This document shows, piece by piece, positions 54,456 through 63,013 of a stretch of 64,000 bases of DNA. The notes beneath the pieces were generated by a model. It saw only the letters and a list, made by a program, of their open reading frames with translations. It had not been told where the DNA came from and ran no database searches. Location: the NCBI GenBank assembly GCA_026702755.1, contig JAPPBX010000017.1:77743-141742 (forward strand). The letters run 5' to 3'. Position 1 is the first letter of the stretch. Each line of letters opens with the position of its first letter. The translations under genes were made by a program, and so were the position numbers. The stretch is from Candidatus Poribacteria bacterium (lineage in GTDB: Bacteria > Poribacteria > WGA-4E > WGA-3G).

Positions 54456-54482
54456 GCAACCGTTTTGACCGAAATACGCGTC
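54456..54482 (+). promoter_or_regulatory. ECF-type promoter of selN-1/selN-2
   Basis: GCAACC, 17-bp spacer, CGTC, with GTTTTG after the first box and a TATATA stretch after the second. The same arrangement with identical spacing occurs at 57890 and 59794, only ahead of the other selN-type transcripts. The boxes fit extracytoplasmic-function sigma promoters. Confidence 0.65.
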
Positions 54483-54529
54483 ATTATATATTGAGGTAAG
54501 GACTCAAATGTTAGTGAGGGAATTGAAAA

Positions 54530-56152
54530 ATGGAAACTCTTAATACCTATAAAGAATCAACAACTAAAAAAATCGCCCTCAATCTTGATGGCGACGCAGA
54601 AGTGTCTGTGAAAGGTTTCATCGCTCCGATTGAGAACACCCTATCCAATTTTCATGTCGAGTGGGAGGCGTTAGCGAATCTACGCGTCACTGAACCAGAA
54701 AAACGCTATCCAGTATCTGTTTTTCGAGCATTTCTTCCGAACAAGCCTGTTTCGGTAGGCGACCTTTGGCAGATAGAAGAAGCCAGCGTCCTTGAATTGC
54801 TCCAGCAACTTCATCCCAATCCGAATTTGGATATGCATATCAATTCCGGGGATTCTTGTGGATTGTGGGCATGTCTGCGCGCTTACAACGATCAGTTTGC
54901 CGAGATCGTTTTTCGGATTCATGCGGAGTTCAAGTTAGAAGGGGGTTGGTTTACACCGTCGCAGTTTACGGGTACTTTCGTTATTGATCGGATTGAACAA
55001 CGTGTTATGTTTTTTGAGATGTATGTTCCTAAAGGCACTGTGAATTTCGATCTCAACTGGACGAGTGCTGATGCTGGCTTCTGCTCGCAGATGGAACTCC
55101 GTGCTGGGACACAGGATATTATTCGAGAGATTGAATTCACAGAAGCCATCACCTATGAGGCAGCGAAGCACTCCTTAATACTGCGTTTCTACGAATTCGC
55201 GCGGATTAACTGGGTGCCACCGACTCAGGTGTTAGAGATGGCACAAGCACAACAGAAGCCAATTCATGCTATATCCATAGATGGACCCTTGGCAGATGAG
55301 TCGTGCTGAGGGAGCGGAAAAGGCTTGAGAGCAGTTGCTCTCTCTGATGAACAGAATATAGCGTTCTTGAACGAGAATTTTATCAACACTTGGGTATCGA
55401 ATGTTGAATTAAGGCGGACCCCAAGGAAGCAAGCCTTCATGACACGGCGGTTTCAAGATGAATCCAAGACTTTTGACAGAAGCTATCCCTTGGCACAGGC
55501 TATCATGAAGGGGTGGAATGAGCATTCACCCGTAGATTGTTTGATTCTCTCGCCGGAACTTGAGTTGATGGGCAGCATGCCTGTTAACGACTTCTTCGAT
55601 ACTGAATTGGAACGACTTGGGGACGAGGAGGCGTATCTTTTCTTTCTTGAAGCGTCGTTAGCAGGGAAACAGCCCGGATTGGATGGTAGCACTTTGGAGC
55701 CTCAGCCAACAACTGATTGGAATGTTTTTTTCAATTCAGGGACTGTTGTGAACAGTTTGAAAATTGCACTCACCCATGAGCGTCCTGAACAAGAGGTATT
55801 GAACATTTTCCGGACACCAGAATCTGGCTATCAAGATTATACTGTCATTGAAATTGATACAACGGCATTTAAAGATGGCGGCATGCTCATTATTGATATA
55901 TCAGTAGGAGGTGCTGAACCTGCGGGGTCGTTTGATTTATACAGTGGGGATAGCGAATTACCCACAGAAGGTGTGCCTCAGGACGCACTCGGTTCGGCAT
56001 GGGGTATTCCGCCCTGTAAAAAGGGAATTATCAGGTATCCTTTCGAGCGAGGTGGGTTCTTTAAGTTGGGTGCTACTGGTGATTGGTTCAGTGAGAAGGG
56101 GAGTATCAACGCTTTTCTCGCTAAAGTTTCCGTGAAATCTGAAACGGAATAG
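54530..56152 (+). CDS. selN: Selenoprotein N-like protein 1 (Sec at codon 260)
   Basis: Read through one in-frame TGA (55307-55309) the gene encodes 540 residues. Residues 1-258 match the core of SELENON, including VFRAFLPNKPVSVGDLWQI, QLHPNP, LWACLRAYNDQFAEIVFRIHAEF and FTPSQFTG. PIHAISIDGPLADESC then leads to Sec260 and GSGKGLRAVALSDEQNIAFLNENFINTWV, which corresponds to the SCUG thioredoxin-like active site of SELENON. After about residue 330 a C-terminal beta-rich domain follows (GYQDYTVIEIDTTAF, EPAGSFDLYSGD). There is no signal peptide: a stop lies two codons before the ATG. Function, by analogy, is thiol-disulfide exchange. A SECIS-like hairpin follows the TGA, and selN-2 starts 21 bases after the stop. 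Confidence 0.88.
55307..55342 (+). promoter_or_regulatory. Sec UGA codon and bacterial SECIS hairpin, selN-1
   Basis: TGA at 55307-55309, then 17 bases, then GAGAGC, loop AGTT, GCTCTC (55327-55342): a perfect 6-bp stem with G as second loop base. Confidence 0.8.
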
Positions 56153-56173
56153 CTGTGGATATGGAGGTAAAGA

Positions 56174-57715
56174 GTGATAAACCTTTGTAATGTACTAAAT
56201 AGTTCGGCGAGCCTACAGGTACACGCGCATTGGGATCCTATTGCGGATTCTACGTTTAATATGCACAAAGACTCACCAGAACTCACTGAGTTATTTGACC
56301 TGTCTCCAAATCAGCCTGTCAAGGAATACGGGATAGATGTTTTCAATGCGTTCCTTCCACCATCAACTGTAGCGGTAGGAGATGTCTGGGAACTTGATCC
56401 GAACAGGCTTATTTCCTTCCTTCATCAGTTTCATCTTGATGCAACCACAGCCGTATATCACGGAGCGGAAGGGGCGTTCGCATGCTTACGTGCGTTTTCA
56501 TCGGATTACGCTGAGGTCGCTTTCCGAATTCATGCTGATTTCACGCTGGAGAGTGCTGCCTATAAGGCGTGGCAAGACAAAAACTCGTCGGAGGACGATG
56601 ATAATAAATCCCGTTTTGTCCCTTCTCATTTTGTTGGACGGTTGTTAATCAATCTGAAAAAAGGGACGGTTCGGACATTTTCGCTCCATCTCCCTCCACG
56701 CAATAGTAACGTTATCATCAGTGCCTTCGGTGGTATTGACATGGTATTTGTGCCGCGTATGGAACTCCTCACTACGGACGAGACGGATCAGAACGGAATC
56801 GCGTGGGACGCTGCTATCACAATGGAAGAGGCACACCGCGCCTTGGAATTGAAATTCTACAAATTCTCGGAGATTAACTGGTTGCCGATTGATGCGGCAG
56901 TTACACAGGCGAAAGAAACCAATCGTCCGATCCATGCGATTCATGTCTGGGGGTGCTTAGACAATGAATCGTGCTGAGCGAACGGCAAGTATTTGAGGGT
57001 GGGTCCGCTCTCTGATCCAGAGGTGATAAGAACGCTCAACGAAAAGTTTGTCAATACGTGGGTACTCCTCCGAGAATTACCGGAACTGATAGGCGGTGCG
57101 AAAGGGGAGGCGGTCAGCCTTGTCGCTAAAGAGATGAAACGTCACTACACGGACTCTGTGGATATTCTGGTCCTGACTCCCGATGCGGAAGTTATCATGC
57201 ATCAGCCGGAGATGGCACTGCCTTACAAGAATCAGGCGCAAGCGTATCTATCGGTGTTACAGCATGCTGCAGATGTGTTTGAAGGGAGACGTATTCGTGT
57301 TGGGCAAGGGTCAAAATTAGATGGAAATCCAATCAGTTTGGGTACAGAATTGATGGAGGTGCTGCAGGTTTTTCGCGCTTCTGGCACCGATACTCCGGAT
57401 TACACGGTCGTTGAAATTGATACGACACCATTTGAACGCGGCGGGATACTCCACATTGAGATACAAGTCGGAACAGGTGAGGCAGCAGGGACGTTTGAGT
57501 TGTTTGATGCCGATACCGAAATTCCTACATCAAACGATGCGGATAAAGCACTGGAAGGTGCATGGGACGTTTCGCCCGGTGGTATAGGACATATCTTCCA
57601 TGATTTTAGCAGGGGTCGGCGTTTTAAGTTGGTCGCTACGGGTTCGGACAATCAGACAAACTGCACCAATGCTTTTCTGGCGCGTGTTTCTATCGTCCCT
57701 CCATTTGAAAAATAG
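56174..57715 (+). CDS. selN: Selenoprotein N-like protein 2 (Sec at codon 268), divergent
   Basis: 513 residues with one in-frame TGA (56975-56977); GTG start behind GGAGG. The most divergent of the four. It keeps the SELENON core (VFNAFLPPSTVAVGDVWEL, ACLRAFSSDYAEVAFRIHADF, FVPSHFVG) and the redox site HVWGCLDNESC-Sec-ANGKYLR, followed by LSDPEVIRTLNEKFVNTWV. The residues after Sec are Ala-Asn-Gly-Lys in place of Gly-Ser-Gly-Lys. A charged insert near residue 135-150 (KNSSEDDDNKSR) and the shorter N-terminus set it apart. No signal peptide. The C-terminal beta domain is present (DYTVVEIDTTPFERGG). Second gene of the selN-1 transcript. Confidence 0.85.
56975..57010 (+). promoter_or_regulatory. 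Sec UGA codon and bacterial SECIS hairpin, selN-2
   Basis: TGA, then 17 bases, then GAGGG, loop TGGGT, CCGCTC with one bulged G (56995-57010). Weaker stem than the other three, same placement. Confidence 0.6.
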
Positions 57716-58017
57716 AATATATTGTCTTAGCCTACCTGTCAACGTCGGACTGCCTATCCACGTTCTATTAAACAAGCATGAGTTCGACGTTGATTTTCAA
57801 CATTTACCTCCGTTTTTATTCTCAAACCCACAAAGTACATACCAAATTGGTAATTTTGTGTCCGATTTCTCCGATTTTTTGAAAATTAGGCAACCGTTTT
57901 GTCTGTCACCCGCGTCACTATATATCAAGATGAGAACCTACGCGAGCAGCAACTTTTTGTAGAGAAGATGTTTGCAAAGTGTATTCCAATAAATTTTTAT
58001 TGTAAGGAGATTTGAAA
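57716..58017. other. Intergenic region before selN-3
   Basis: About 300 AT-rich bases holding the ECF-type promoter at 57890 and a leader of about 95 bases with AAGGAG nine bases before the selN-3 ATG. No gene seen. Confidence 0.5.
57890..57916 (+). promoter_or_regulatory. ECF-type promoter of selN-3
   Basis: GCAACC, 17-bp spacer, CGTC. The surrounding bases, from ATTAG upstream to ACTATAT downstream, match the copy at 59794 at nearly every position. Confidence 0.65.
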
Positions 58018-59712
58018 ATGAAAATCTTAACGATTGGACTGGTCATTCTGGTAATAATGAGTGGACAACTAAACGCCGACGACCCCTCAACAACAAACAA
58101 CAAAATAACACTGAAACTTGATGACACTTCAGAGGTGTCTGTCAAAGGCTTCATTGCTCCGATCGGAGATACGATGTCCGATTCTTTCTTTAAGGAATGG
58201 AACAATTTGATGAACCTGCGGGTTGCTGAACCAGAGAAAAGGTACCCGACATCGATTTTTCGTGCTTTTCTTCCAGATAAATCGGTTTCAGTCGGTGACC
58301 TCTGGCAGATTGATAAGGAGGGTGCATTGAAATTGCTGAAGCAGCTGCACCCCAATCCAAGCCTGGACATGCACATCAATATGGGAGATTCTCGTGGTCT
58401 GTGGGCATGCCTACGCGCTTACAACGATGAATTTGCCGACATTGTATTTCGTATCCATGCAGAGTTTGTCTTAGAAGATGGTTGGTTCACACCTTCTCAG
58501 TTTGCTGGACATCTGATTATTGATCAAGTTAAAGAAAGCGTTGCATTTTTCAAGATGCACGTCCCCGAAGGTCCGGTAAATTATGATGTCAATTGGAAAA
58601 GGTTTGGCGAGCGCAGGATAACAGCAGCTGGTTTTTGCTCGCAAATGGAACTCCGTGCTGGGACGCAAGATTTGCTCGGAAACGTTAAATTCACGGAATC
58701 CATTACCCAAGAAGCTGCCGAAGACGCACTGATACGAAACTTTTACAAAGCGCAGCAAATCAATTGGGTGCCCCCGGATCAGGTGTTGGGAATGGTGCAA
58801 GCACAGCAGAAGCCGATTCATGTTATCTCCATAGATGGACCTTTGACCGATGAGTCGTGCTGAGGAAGCGGGAAAACTCTGAGGGCAGTTGTCCTCTCCG
58901 ACAATCGAAACATAGCATTCTTGAATGAAAATTTCATCAATACCTGGGTATCAAATGTGGAATTAGAGCGCACGCCGAATAAGCAAGCCTTCATGGCAAT
59001 GCGCCGTCAGCACGGGTTTAAGCCGTTTGACAAAACGCACCCGTTGGCACAGGCAATCATGAAAGGGTGGAAGAAACGTTCACCGGTGGATATTTTGGTT
59101 ATTTCACCGGAGCTTAAACTGATGGGTAAGCAACCTCTCAATGAACTTTTTTCGAGTGGTGATATCGTACAGAATTACTTGGCATTTCTCCAAGATTCCT
59201 TAGCAGGAAAGCTCCCTGGGTTCAGTGAAGACTCTTCCCAACCTTTATCAGAACCTGATTCAAAGGCTTTTTCTGAATTAGATGCTGCTATGTCAAAAGA
59301 TTTGAAAGTTATACTCACGAGTGAAAAACCTAAGCGGGAAGTTCTGAATATTTTTCGGACCCCAAAACGAGGTTATCAAGATTATACTGTTATTGAAATT
59401 GACACGACAGCGTTTGAAGAGGGTGGTCTGCTTGTTATTGATATATCAGTAGGAAGTGCTGAACCTGCGGGGTCGTTTGATCTTTATGATGGTGATGCTG
59501 AACTTCCCACAGAAGGTATGCCTCACGGGGTGCTTGCCTCTGCATGGGATGTGCCTCCCGATAAAAGAGGAACAATTAAGTATCGTTTCGACCGCGGCAA
59601 GGTTTTTAAGTTAGGGGGGACTGGCAGTTGGTCCAGTGAGGAAGGGAGTACCAACGCTTTTCTAGCTACAATTTCAGTAGAAGCTGAGGTTGGAAAAAAA
59701 GGATCAAATTGA
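58018..59712 (+). CDS. selN: Selenoprotein N-like protein 3 (Sec at codon 282), exported
   Basis: 564 residues with one in-frame TGA (58861-58863). The start is the ATG after TAAGGAGATTTGAAA; the TTG two codons earlier is not needed. Unlike copies 1 and 2 it has a signal peptide (MKILTIGLVILVIMSGQLNA), so it should act in the periplasm, analogous to ER-lumenal SELENON. Core blocks: SVKGFIAPIGD, LWACLRAYNDEFADIVFRIHAEF, FTPSQFAGHLIIDQ. The redox site is GPLTDESC-Sec-GSGKTLRAVVLSDNRNIAF and is followed by LNENFINTWVSNVELERTP. The C-terminal beta domain begins near FRTPKRGYQDYTVIEIDTT. The gene ends at an ordinary TGA, which shows that both uses of the codon occur in one gene. Confidence 0.9.
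58861..58896 (+). promoter_or_regulatory. Sec UGA codon and bacterial SECIS hairpin, selN-3
   Basis: TGA, then 17 bases, then GAGGGC, loop AGTT, GTCCTC (58881-58896). One G-U pair replaces the A-U pair of selN-1, a compensatory change; the loop is identical. Confidence 0.8.
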
Positions 59713-59793
59713 CACACAGGTTTTGTATATTCAATACAACCCTACTTTTAACCGCGTTCTTTCTCTATGCTACATTTTCTTTCGTGAAATTAG

Positions 59794-59820
59794 GCAACCG
59801 TTTTGTCTGCCACCCGCGTC
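59794..59820 (+). promoter_or_regulatory. ECF-type promoter of the propeller/selN-4 operon
   Basis: GCAACC, 17-bp spacer, CGTC, about 125 bases before the propeller gene. Confidence 0.65.
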
Positions 59821-59946
59821 ACTATATTAAGGTCAGAATCTAAGCGAACAGAGCTCTCTGTAGACGGATGTTTACGTAAAGTATTTTCTATAATTCAGTA
59901 TAGGGAAAATAAAAGATCAAAATTTATCCATAGTCGGGAGTATCCT

Positions 59947-60993
59947 ATGACGCGCAAGTCTATTTTTCTTTCTTCAATGAATTGGGGTTATACCAAGTTT
60001 ACAATATTAAGTTACGCTGTCACTGTGTTACTTGTGTTCAGTAGCAGTGCTATCGTATGGGCGGAAGCCCCAACAACAGCGAAAGTCGCGTTCATGTCAA
60101 AGCGGGATGGTAATCCCGAAATCTATATAATGAACCCTGATGGGAGTGACCAAGTCAATTTGACCCAGCATCCCGCAGCCGATTATCATCCAGCGTGGTC
60201 GCCAAACGGGAAACAGATTCTATTCAGTTCAGATCGAGACGGAATCTTCGATTTGTATCTTATGGATGCCGATGGCACAAATGTGCGGAAGGTGTTCGCA
60301 AGCAGCAAATATAGATGGGAGCCTGCTTGGGCACCCGATGGCAAACGAATTGCCTATGCCCAAGGAGATCCAGGAAAGGCAAAATTACAAGCTGGGATGC
60401 GATTTGTCCCTGCGGCTGACCTCACGCTCTGCGTCGCGCATTTAAACGGAGACTCTGTTGAAGAATTGACAGATGGATTTACGCCAAGTTGGTCTCCTGA
60501 TGGGCGCGAGATAGCCTTTGTGGTGGGTGGGCGTGAAAGCACACCATTGGGTATTTTTGATCTACAGAGACGCACCCGAAAGATACTCCCTTTAAAAGAG
60601 ATGCCGTGGATATTCCATCCAAGCTGGTCCCCACAAGGCGACAAGATTGTCTTTACGAAACCTGATGGAGCGGCGTTTAATGAACAGGGTTTTCTTGTGT
60701 CTAGGAAGGGGACAATCTACACTGTGGATAGCGATGACAAAGGACTTCATCAGATTACCGATGAACATTCCTCCTATAACCCTACTTGGTCTCCAGATGG
60801 CAACGAACTCATTTACAACGCTCGGGTGGGCGTTTTTTCACAACTCTTCAAAACGGACCTGAACGGCGGTACCCCAACGCAACTGACACACGAAGGCAGT
60901 AATTCAAGTCCAGATTGGTTTAATCCAACATTAAGCGTTTCACCTTCGGTACAATTATCAACGACGATGTGGGGAGAAATCAAAGCAGATTAA
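59947..60993 (+). CDS. Exported TolB-like beta-propeller protein with WG-type tag
   Basis: 348 residues from the ATG six bases after GGGAG; longer in-frame readings run through the promoter and are rejected. The signal peptide is long (about 40 residues, ending near VWAEA). The mature part is a six-bladed PD40/TolB-type propeller: blades carry [61 protein letters not shown] and [14 protein letters not shown]. The C-terminus is [13 protein letters not shown], the tag with one extra residue. It is first in an operon with selN-4 (22-base gap), linking the tagged exported proteins to the selenoprotein regulon. Confidence 0.85.
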
Positions 60994-61015
60994 GATAACT
61001 ATAAGGAGATTAAAA

Positions 61016-63013
61016 ATGAAAATCTTAACAATTGGACTGCTCATTCTGGTAGTGATCGGTGGACAACTGAATGCTGATGACCATTCGGCAGCTAACAAAA
61101 AAATTACACTTAGTCTTGATGGCACTTCAGAGGTGTCTGTCAAAGGGTTCATTGCCCCGATCGGAGATGCCGTTTCCAATTCTGGTAAGAACTGGGATGC
61201 CTTGACAAATATGCGAGTTGTTGAACCGGAAAAGCAATATCCGGTATTGGTCTTTCATGCTTTCCTGCCAGATAAACCGGTTTCAGTTGGTGAAATCTGG
61301 AAGGTCGAGCAAGATGGGGCACTGGAGTTGCTGCGGCAGCTGCACCCTAATCCAAGTTTAAATATGCATATTAACGTTGGAGATTCTTATGGGCTGTGGG
61401 CATGTTTACGTGCTTACAATGATGAATTTGCCGATATTGTGTTTCGCATCCATGCAGAATTTGTCTTTAAGGATGGCTGGTTCACACCCTCCCAGTTTGC
61501 CGGGCATCTTGTGATCAATCGCGTTAAAGAAAGCGTCGCATTTTTCGTGATGCGTGTCCCAGATGGTCCGGTAAACTTTGATTTTAATCGGACAACATCC
61601 CATGGACGCACAGCAGGTGCGGGCTTTTGTTCGCAAGTGGAACTCCGTTCTGGATTGCAAGATACGCTGGAAAATGTTGAATTTGGAACATCTATTACCC
61701 AAGAAGCTGCTGAACATACTTTAGCACTGCGCTTCTACAAATCGCAGGAAATTAATTGGGTGCCGCCGGACGAGGTCTTGGAAATCGTGCAAGCACAACA
61801 GAAACCGATTCACGCTATTTCTATAGACGGACCCTTGATGGATGAATCCTGCTGAGGGAGCGGCAAAACTATGAGGGCAGTTGTCCTCTCAAACGACCGT
61901 ATCATCAAATTCTTGAACGAAAATTTCATCAATACTTGGGTGTCGAATGTCGAATTAGAGCGCACACCTTTTAAGCAGGAATTCATGGCACTGAGACGGC
62001 AGCAAGGATTCAAGCCGTTTGACAAAACGCATCCTTTAGCACAGGCAATTATGAAAGGTTGGAAGAAGCATTCACCCTCGGATTCTTTGATTCTCTCACC
62101 GGATCTTGAGTTGATGGGCAGACAGCCCGTCAATGAGCTTTCTGGAGACTGGGCAGGGGGCTACCTTACATTTCTCAAGGAATCGTTAGCAGGAAAACTT
62201 GCAGGATTCGCGGAGGAGACCCCGGAACCACAATCAACGGGTAGTGGTGGGTCCCATAACTCAGATGCTGTTCCTATTGGTGGTTTGAATGTTGTACTCA
62301 CCCCCCAGAAGCTTGAACAGGAAAGCCTCAGCATTTTTCGGACCCCAAAACGAGGTTATCAAGATTATACTGTCGTTGAAATTGATACGACAGCGTTTAA
62401 AGATGGTGGTGTGCTTACGATTGATATATCAGTAGGGAGTGCTGAACCTGCGGGGTCATTTGATCTTTATGCTGGTGATACTGAACTCCCCACAGAAGGT
62501 ATGCCTCACGGGGCGCTTGCCTCTGCATGGGATGTGCCTTCCGGTGAAACGGGAACAATCAAGTATCGTTTCAACCGGGGGAAAGTTTTTAAGTTGGGCG
62601 GTACTGGCAGTTGGTTCAGTGAAGAAGGGAGTATCAACGCTTTTTTGGCAAAAATCTCTGTTGAACCGGATCAGAAACCAGAACCGAAAAAAGTGTCATC
62701 GGCGCGTTCAGAGCAATCTGCGGAAGATGTGATGAACACTTTCGTGGAAGCATTTAAGAATCTTGATTCGGAGATAATAAACTCAATGCTAACAGGGGAT
62801 GCCAGAGAAGAATTTGACATGGATACTGAAAACCTGACAGAGGATATGCGTACTCAGTTCAGTCAAATATTGCGTCACATGGAGATTTTGAGCAGCGAAT
62901 ATGTGGGTGATGAATTTCACTTCCGATTGAGAGTGCCTGGTTCAAATCCGCCAGAAGTATCTGTTAAGATGCGAAAAGTAGAGGGTATCTGGCTCATTTA
63001 TGATGCCAAGTGA
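61016..63013 (+). CDS. selN: Selenoprotein N-like protein 4 (Sec at codon 280) with extra C-terminal domain
   Basis: 665 residues with one in-frame TGA (61853-61855). Start ATG after TAAGGAGATTAAAA, a leader nearly identical to that of selN-3. Signal peptide MKILTIGLLILVVIGGQLNA. SELENON core (SVKGFIAPIGDAV, FHAFLPDKPVSVGEIWKV, RIHAEF) and redox site GPLMDESC-Sec-GSGKTMRAVVLS. The C-terminal beta domain is followed by about 110 further residues absent from the other copies: a Lys/Pro/Ser linker and then SAEDVMNTFVEAFKNLDSEIINSML to VSVKMRKVEGIWLIYDAK, the layout of an NTF2/DUF4878-like domain. The gene ends at TGA. Close to selN-3 in sequence, so a recent duplication with domain gain. Confidence 0.9.
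61853..61888 (+). promoter_or_regulatory. Sec UGA codon and bacterial SECIS hairpin, selN-4
   Basis: TGA, then 17 bases, then GAGGGC, loop AGTT, GTCCTC (61873-61888), identical to the selN-3 hairpin. Confidence 0.8.

Follow-up and report, generated by a model that had tools for sequence, protein, structure and literature searches.

A four-gene array of SELENON-core selenoproteins in a sponge-symbiotic Candidatus Poribacteria bacterium

Four genes of a 64,000-nucleotide stretch (the window) of a Candidatus Poribacteria genome (GenBank assembly GCA_026702755.1, contig JAPPBX010000017.1, positions 77,743 to 141,742 of the forward strand) each encode a bacterial selenoprotein in which a single in-frame UGA is read as selenocysteine (Sec), a reading supported here by comparative sequence evidence. 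The source is a metagenome-assembled genome (MAG) of a sponge symbiont, 5.84 Mb in 126 contigs and 96% complete. The encoded proteins share a core and a Sec domain with SELENON, a family best known from animals, which on our evidence also has a large and apparently co-regulated bacterial branch. Our full account is that these SELENON-core selenoproteins are recoded through a selenocysteine insertion sequence (SECIS) hairpin and SelB, are likely to be reductases, and probably belong to a regulon of an extracytoplasmic function (ECF) sigma factor. We give this account a probability of roughly 0.88; within it, we infer the fold (from a model), the reductase activity, the cellular location and the pairing of sigma factor with promoter.

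Results

All four genes lie on the forward strand, and their frames are open from start to stop once TGA is translated as Sec (U). Each contains exactly one internal TGA, directly after (D/N)ESC, as a preliminary description of this DNA had reported with coordinates that proved exact. Gene 1 (54530..56152) encodes 540 amino acids (aa), with Sec at residue 260 (TGA at 55307..55309), and gene 2 (56174..57715), which starts with GTG, encodes 513 aa with Sec at residue 268 (TGA at 56975..56977). Gene 3 (58018..59712; 564 aa, Sec at residue 282, TGA at 58861..58863) and gene 4 (61016..63013; 665 aa, Sec at residue 280, TGA at 61853..61855) use TGA as their true stop as well. By inspection, the N-termini of genes 3 and 4 resemble signal peptides, and none was seen in genes 1 and 2. 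Purine-rich stretches resembling ribosome-binding sites precede the starts (AAGGAG at genes 3 and 4).

The standard code (table 11) splits each of these genes into two open reading frames (ORFs), the downstream ones having possible internal starts, and it could be argued on this ground that TGA is a true stop, leaving a short N-terminal protein and either a separate downstream gene or a decayed remnant. The comparative evidence makes such an arrangement extremely improbable. Among the 241 family sequences at the fetched loci, 236 carry TGA at the Sec column, which rules out sequencing error, and selection is equal on its two sides: when gene 1 is compared with its ortholog from the closest genome, the proportions of synonymous (pS) and nonsynonymous (pN) differences are 0.17 and 0.03 before TGA and 0.19 and 0.03 after it. 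The identity of genes 3 and 4 is 72% both before and after TGA, and the second halves of the four paralogs are 38-72% identical to one another, in keeping with the earlier claim that the frame continues into a conserved second half. Together, the conserved TGA column and the equal pN/pS exclude pseudogenes and pairs of separate genes. The remaining five sequences represent four distinct genes that carry Gly (three genes) or Ser (one gene) in place of Sec (L148:3387-4982, L149:2574-4286, L150:2604-4340 and L158:5685-7025); these are uninterrupted through the Sec column, and the unit is therefore one protein. No relative among those fetched has the two halves as separate genes with their own starts, an arrangement that would have spoken for a true stop. 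Cys occurs at the Sec column in none of the 241 sequences; Cys-containing homologs are usual for bacterial selenoproteins, although not strictly defining. To these points may be added a constraint on synonymous sites that falls exactly over a SECIS-type hairpin.

This hairpin is of the bacterial type and is present in all four genes, 21-38 nt downstream of the TGA. The upper stem-loop of gene 1 (55327..55342, forward strand, as are the others) is GAGAGC-AGUU-GCUCUC, with a folding energy of -9.5 kcal/mol that only 7 of 500 synonymous recodings equal; that of gene 2 (56995..57012; loop GGUC, -9.1 kcal/mol, 3/500) pairs in a register that is offset by two on its 3' side. Genes 3 (58881..58896) and 4 (61873..61888) share GAGGGC-AGUU-GUCCUC, for which 3/500 and 5/500 recodings, respectively, fold as well. 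Folding of a 48-nt window against dinucleotide shuffles gave weak z-scores, and the test chosen was synonymous recoding of the upper stem. Across 185 unique homolog windows, which come from related sequences, so that the figures are effect sizes and not independent counts, the hairpin occupies nt 21-36 counting from the T of TGA, and its apical loop is AGGU or AGUU in 176. The same windows use AGG or AGA for Arg+7 in 185/185 (background 25%), GGT for Gly+9 in 99% (36%), GTC for Val+10 in 95% (26%) and CTC for Leu+11 in 97% (18%). The upper stem averages -8.9 kcal/mol versus -2.8 for synonymous recodings, with 96% of sequences within the best 5%, and in one sequence both members of a pair are exchanged, C-G standing for G-C. 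All four Sec-lost genes retain the stem, where a relaxed one had been expected, and the GU loop is gone in two of the Gly copies.

It might also be supposed that UGA codes here for Trp or Gly, which it does in some candidate phyla, or that a suppressor tRNA reads it, and the Gly at the Sec column of Sec-lost paralogs could be taken to point that way. We consider this scarcely credible, given that UGA serves as an ordinary stop in the window, where it terminates 10 of the 48 other ORFs examined as well as genes 3 and 4 (the code is unaltered, as had been proposed), that the hairpin is of the bacterial SECIS type, and that the genome encodes a bona fide Sec decoding machinery. A tRNA-Sec gene lies directly 3' of selB on contig C86; it scores 78 bits, above the cut-off, and is read by ARAGORN as SeC with anticodon tca (UCA). 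With selA (598 bits) and selD (356 bits; contig C96:159939-160862, locus L163), the set of selA, selB, selD and UCA-anticodon tRNA-Sec is complete. The selD gene in turn encodes a selenoprotein, its in-frame TGA falling in KCAGU. A selA match was obtained in 57 of 65 family-positive genomes and in 15 family-negative ones, so that the Sec trait extends beyond the SELENON-like family.

For comparison with SELENON we used a human reference sequence (590 aa) that was checked against published residues and not taken from a database record. Its length and 19 numbered residues (R5, Q8, R27, H52, S78, R262, R268, R291, G360, Y361, I362, P363, H389, S429, U462, G463, R466, R469 and Q509) agree with published accounts (PMC8967691, PMC8639696, PMC3541580, PMC5356628). 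A profile of 58 bacterial sequences matches this reference at 205 bits, the best of 2000 shuffles reaching 2 bits, and family profile matches span 165-205 bits, all against the sequence checked at the published residues. Two blocks, aligned in order, carry the score, namely FRIHAEF...QFTG (94 bits) and the Sec domain (105 bits), the latter with the SCUG redox motif followed by GSG(R/K)xLR. None of the 58 bacterial sequences deviates at the positions of human R291, H293, G315, Sec462 and R469, variant positions of human SELENON being among these invariant ones; the positions of G273 and N340 are nearly as constant, and R466 is replaced by Lys. Positions G463, R466 and R469 of SELENON have been named previously (PMC3541580, PMC8967691). 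When the SELENON reference is used as a single query, its best matches in the genome are paralogs outside the array, on contigs C122 (148 bits) and C63 (145 bits). The C63 paralog has 395 aa and, of the copies without the added domain, is the nearest to SELENON.

A likeness that is only superficial, with SCUG-GSGK-LR having arisen independently or the thioredoxin domain alone being common to the two, would fit the lack of an EF-hand, a transmembrane anchor and a glycosylated endoplasmic reticulum (ER) context, the extra C-terminal domain, the marginal similarity of the first 60-80 residues (3 bits) and a SELENON sequence from outside the databases. Such a coincidence is very unlikely in the face of two strong blocks in the same order, of single-query matches as high as those above, and of invariance at positions that vary in human SELENON. 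Common descent of the core is what we favour.

The modelled fold is consistent with this relationship. An AlphaFold2 model of gene 3 (pLDDT, the predicted local distance difference test score, of 88) predicts three domains: one at the N-terminus that is rich in beta structure, a thioredoxin-like one in which a helix begins with Cys281-Sec282, and a C-terminal beta-sandwich. For a model of the core only (pLDDT 92), the closest solved folds by Foldseek are DsbH, AGR3, AGR2, TXNDC12 and UAS, and the modelled C-terminal domain resembles collagen-binding-domain-like sandwiches. This beta-sandwich, at 59302..59682 (forward strand) in gene 3, is found in most family copies, including all four in the window, and the same domain ends an ECF sigma factor. 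Gene 4 has in addition a C-terminal segment of ~100 aa (62675-63010) that is absent from genes 1-3 and has no Pfam match. Neither Pfam nor NCBIfam holds a family that matches these proteins, and a sequence search of the PDB returned no match and no structure of SELENON or a relative.

A thioredoxin-like fold that bears a vicinal Cys-Sec pair suggests thiol-disulfide reductase activity, and SELENON itself has been described as a reductase (PMC10298544). A redox link is also provided by the paralog on contig C122 (L162:3441-5354), in which a SELENON-like Sec core is fused to an AhpC/TSA-type domain; in this protein the usual WCxxC reads WNSFC. We propose that SelB and Sec-tRNA(UCA) would decode the UGA, directed by the SECIS hairpin within the coding sequence, and that the product likely reduces a disulfide or an oxidised thiol of client proteins by way of a Cys-Sec selenenylsulfide. 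Since only genes 3 and 4 of the array have signal-peptide-like N-termini, the paralogs probably serve both compartments, the products of genes 3 and 4 being periplasmic and those of genes 1 and 2 cytosolic.

The four-copy array noted at the outset is real, and it understates the family. The genome contains 14 copies on seven contigs, 13 of them with TGA: the four in the array, three on C104, three on C102 (one with Gly) and single copies on C12, C124, C63 and C122. The family was found in 65 of the 85 genomes of the phylum. No genome of its GTDB family lacks it, and no genome of another class has it. It was found in 0 of 302 genomes sampled outside the phylum; the statement about other phyla rests on these 302 genomes, and one contig scan gave the best 80 of 156 matches. 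The longest arrays hold seven consecutive Sec genes (L077, L092). The four window genes do stand in a row, as the word tandem had implied; in the tree, however, they are old paralogs, and gene 2 belongs to a deep, separate subfamily that retains a Trp nine residues ahead of Sec, corresponding to human W453. Recent tandem duplication is ruled out, the nearest relatives of each gene being in other genomes.

The array also contains a PD40/TolB-like beta-propeller protein (59803..60993, forward strand; PF07676, 98.8 bits), the start codon of which is uncertain. An ECF-type promoter-like element, GCAACCGTTTTG-N11-CGTCA, for which 0 occurrences are expected by chance, stands on the forward strand 5' of gene 1 (54456..54489), and the same pattern recurs 5' of gene 3 (57890..57923) and at the start of the PD40 ORF (59794..59827). 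ECF promoters typically have such a two-part structure, with CGTC at -10. This 34-bp pattern has six exact matches in the 5.84 Mb (control, 0), five of them on this contig and three in the array. Over 75 loci, all 41 motif sites are equal in length and lie on the strand of the array.

An ECF sigma factor gene is found just past the window, at 64154-65482 if the numbering of the window is continued (L156:897-2225). Sigma70 regions 2 and 4 (PF04542, PF08281) score above cut-off and are followed by a hydrophobic, presumably transmembrane segment (mean hydropathy 2.1) and by the beta-sandwich common to the selenoproteins. Genes of this architecture stand beside arrays in 30 of the 75 loci, other Poribacteria included. 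A narrower initial filter for the sigma factor gave 18 loci; counted on the 75-locus set, whose members come from related genomes and are not independent, motif and sigma gene occur together in 22, one without the other in 8 and 6, and neither in 39 (p = 1.6e-7). This co-occurrence suggests that the ECF sigma factor may recognise the GCAACC-N17-CGTC sites before these genes. We envisage a membrane-tethered sigma factor, its beta-sandwich being the presumed sensor, that probably switches the array on as a regulon. Next to this gene is a second ECF sigma factor gene (L156:2842-5868), the 1008-aa product of which is fused to BNR/beta-propeller-like repeats.

Discussion

Several observations weigh against our account and set its limits. 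There is no Pfam EF-hand match, human residues 60-110 are unaligned, and the type II N-terminal membrane anchor of SELENON is absent; the bacterial proteins are thus homologous to its core without being SELENON proper. The human reference, as stated above, is not a database sequence, and the loci behind the motif and sigma factor counts are related. Eight of the 65 family-positive genomes gave no selA match, two of these (G062 and G035) being ~95% complete, which is most simply explained by gaps in the MAGs and their assembly. Both G062 and G035 carry TGA-bearing family genes. Finally, Gly or Ser has taken the place of Sec in four genes, so that not every paralog has a strict need of Sec.

The preliminary reading is supported: none of the three findings that it named as refuting (a genome without Sec machinery, joined proteins with no SELENON match, or, here among the relatives fetched, halves encoded as separate genes with their own starts) was obtained. 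Its wording calls for some revision. That these are functional selenoproteins is backed by signals of selection and recoding, all of which are read from sequence. The term selenoprotein N genes is not exact enough: the core and the Sec domain are common with SELENON, but the EF-hand and the anchor are absent and most copies add a beta-sandwich. SELENON core family is the more exact name.

The literature we searched contains no mention of bacterial SELENON or of selenoproteins in Poribacteria; subscription papers and preprints were outside its scope, and an earlier description may exist. A 2012 survey listed six selenoprotein families common to prokaryotes and eukaryotes, SelN not among them, and found one SelN in the sponge Amphimedon (PMC3473315). 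SelA and SelB, for their part, have been found to be enriched in sponge symbionts (PMC5649159). What appears to be new is a bacterial, multi-copy, Sec-obligate SELENON-core branch with a domain layout of its own and a probable regulon. New as well is the beta-sandwich common to the selenoproteins and the adjoining ECF sigma factor which, with the ECF-type motif before the genes, suggests that the regulon is a dedicated one. For any selenoprotein family it is unusual to be Sec-obligate, present in many copies and, as it appears, co-regulated.

It is tempting to draw these threads together into a single, admittedly doubtful scenario. Perhaps SELENON is not an animal invention but a branch of an older family of Sec-obligate reductases, of which the other known branch is poribacterial, and perhaps the distribution of the family came about by the transfer of genes between the symbionts of sponges and early animals. 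The poribacterial genes might then answer redox stress as a dedicated regulon, the ECF sigma factor and the enzymes that it controls having a beta-sandwich in common as a sensor or targeting domain. The stem-loop of the selenocysteine redefinition element (SRE), by which UGA recoding is stimulated in human SELENON, may even be a relic of a bacterial SECIS at the same place. We hold this combination to be tentative and, taken as a whole, rather unlikely.

Mutations in SELENON lead to congenital myopathies. Without an ER membrane anchor or glycosylation, the bacterial branch offers a simpler system for the study of the fold and the reaction, and its hundreds of natural variants can assist in reading missense positions in the human protein. 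The origin of SELENON, moreover, becomes testable.

Comparison with known systems

The closest known counterpart is metazoan SELENON (SelN, SEPN1), with which the bacterial proteins share SCUG and GSG(K/R)xLR, the FRIHAEF...F.P.QF.G block, a thioredoxin-like domain and a Sec that is always or nearly always retained. Unlike SELENON, the bacterial copies have neither EF-hand nor N-terminal membrane anchor, most add a C-terminal beta-sandwich, many stand in tandem within one genome with a link to an ECF sigma factor, and their SECIS is of the bacterial kind, inside the coding sequence, whereas that of SELENON is in the 3' untranslated region. The vicinal Cys-Sec of SCUG, as in SELENON, is also like the GCUG of thioredoxin reductase. 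DsbH, AGR2-AGR3 and TXNDC12 are the closest solved folds to the modelled Sec domain, although no sequence relation was detected in the PDB search, and their active site is of the CxxC type where here there is a vicinal CU pair. With other thioredoxin-fold bacterial selenoproteins (Prx-like, Trx-like and DsbA-like), the family has in common a Sec redox motif, an in-frame bacterial SECIS and SelA/B/D; it differs in its vicinal CU and N-terminal beta-domain, as in SELENON, and in that a Cys form was not found. Lastly, the neighbouring sigma factor is like ECF sigma factors with C-terminal extensions in having sigma70 regions 2 and 4, a transmembrane segment and an outer domain, but unlike the known ones this outer domain is the beta-sandwich of the SELENON-like proteins, a pairing absent from the literature searched.

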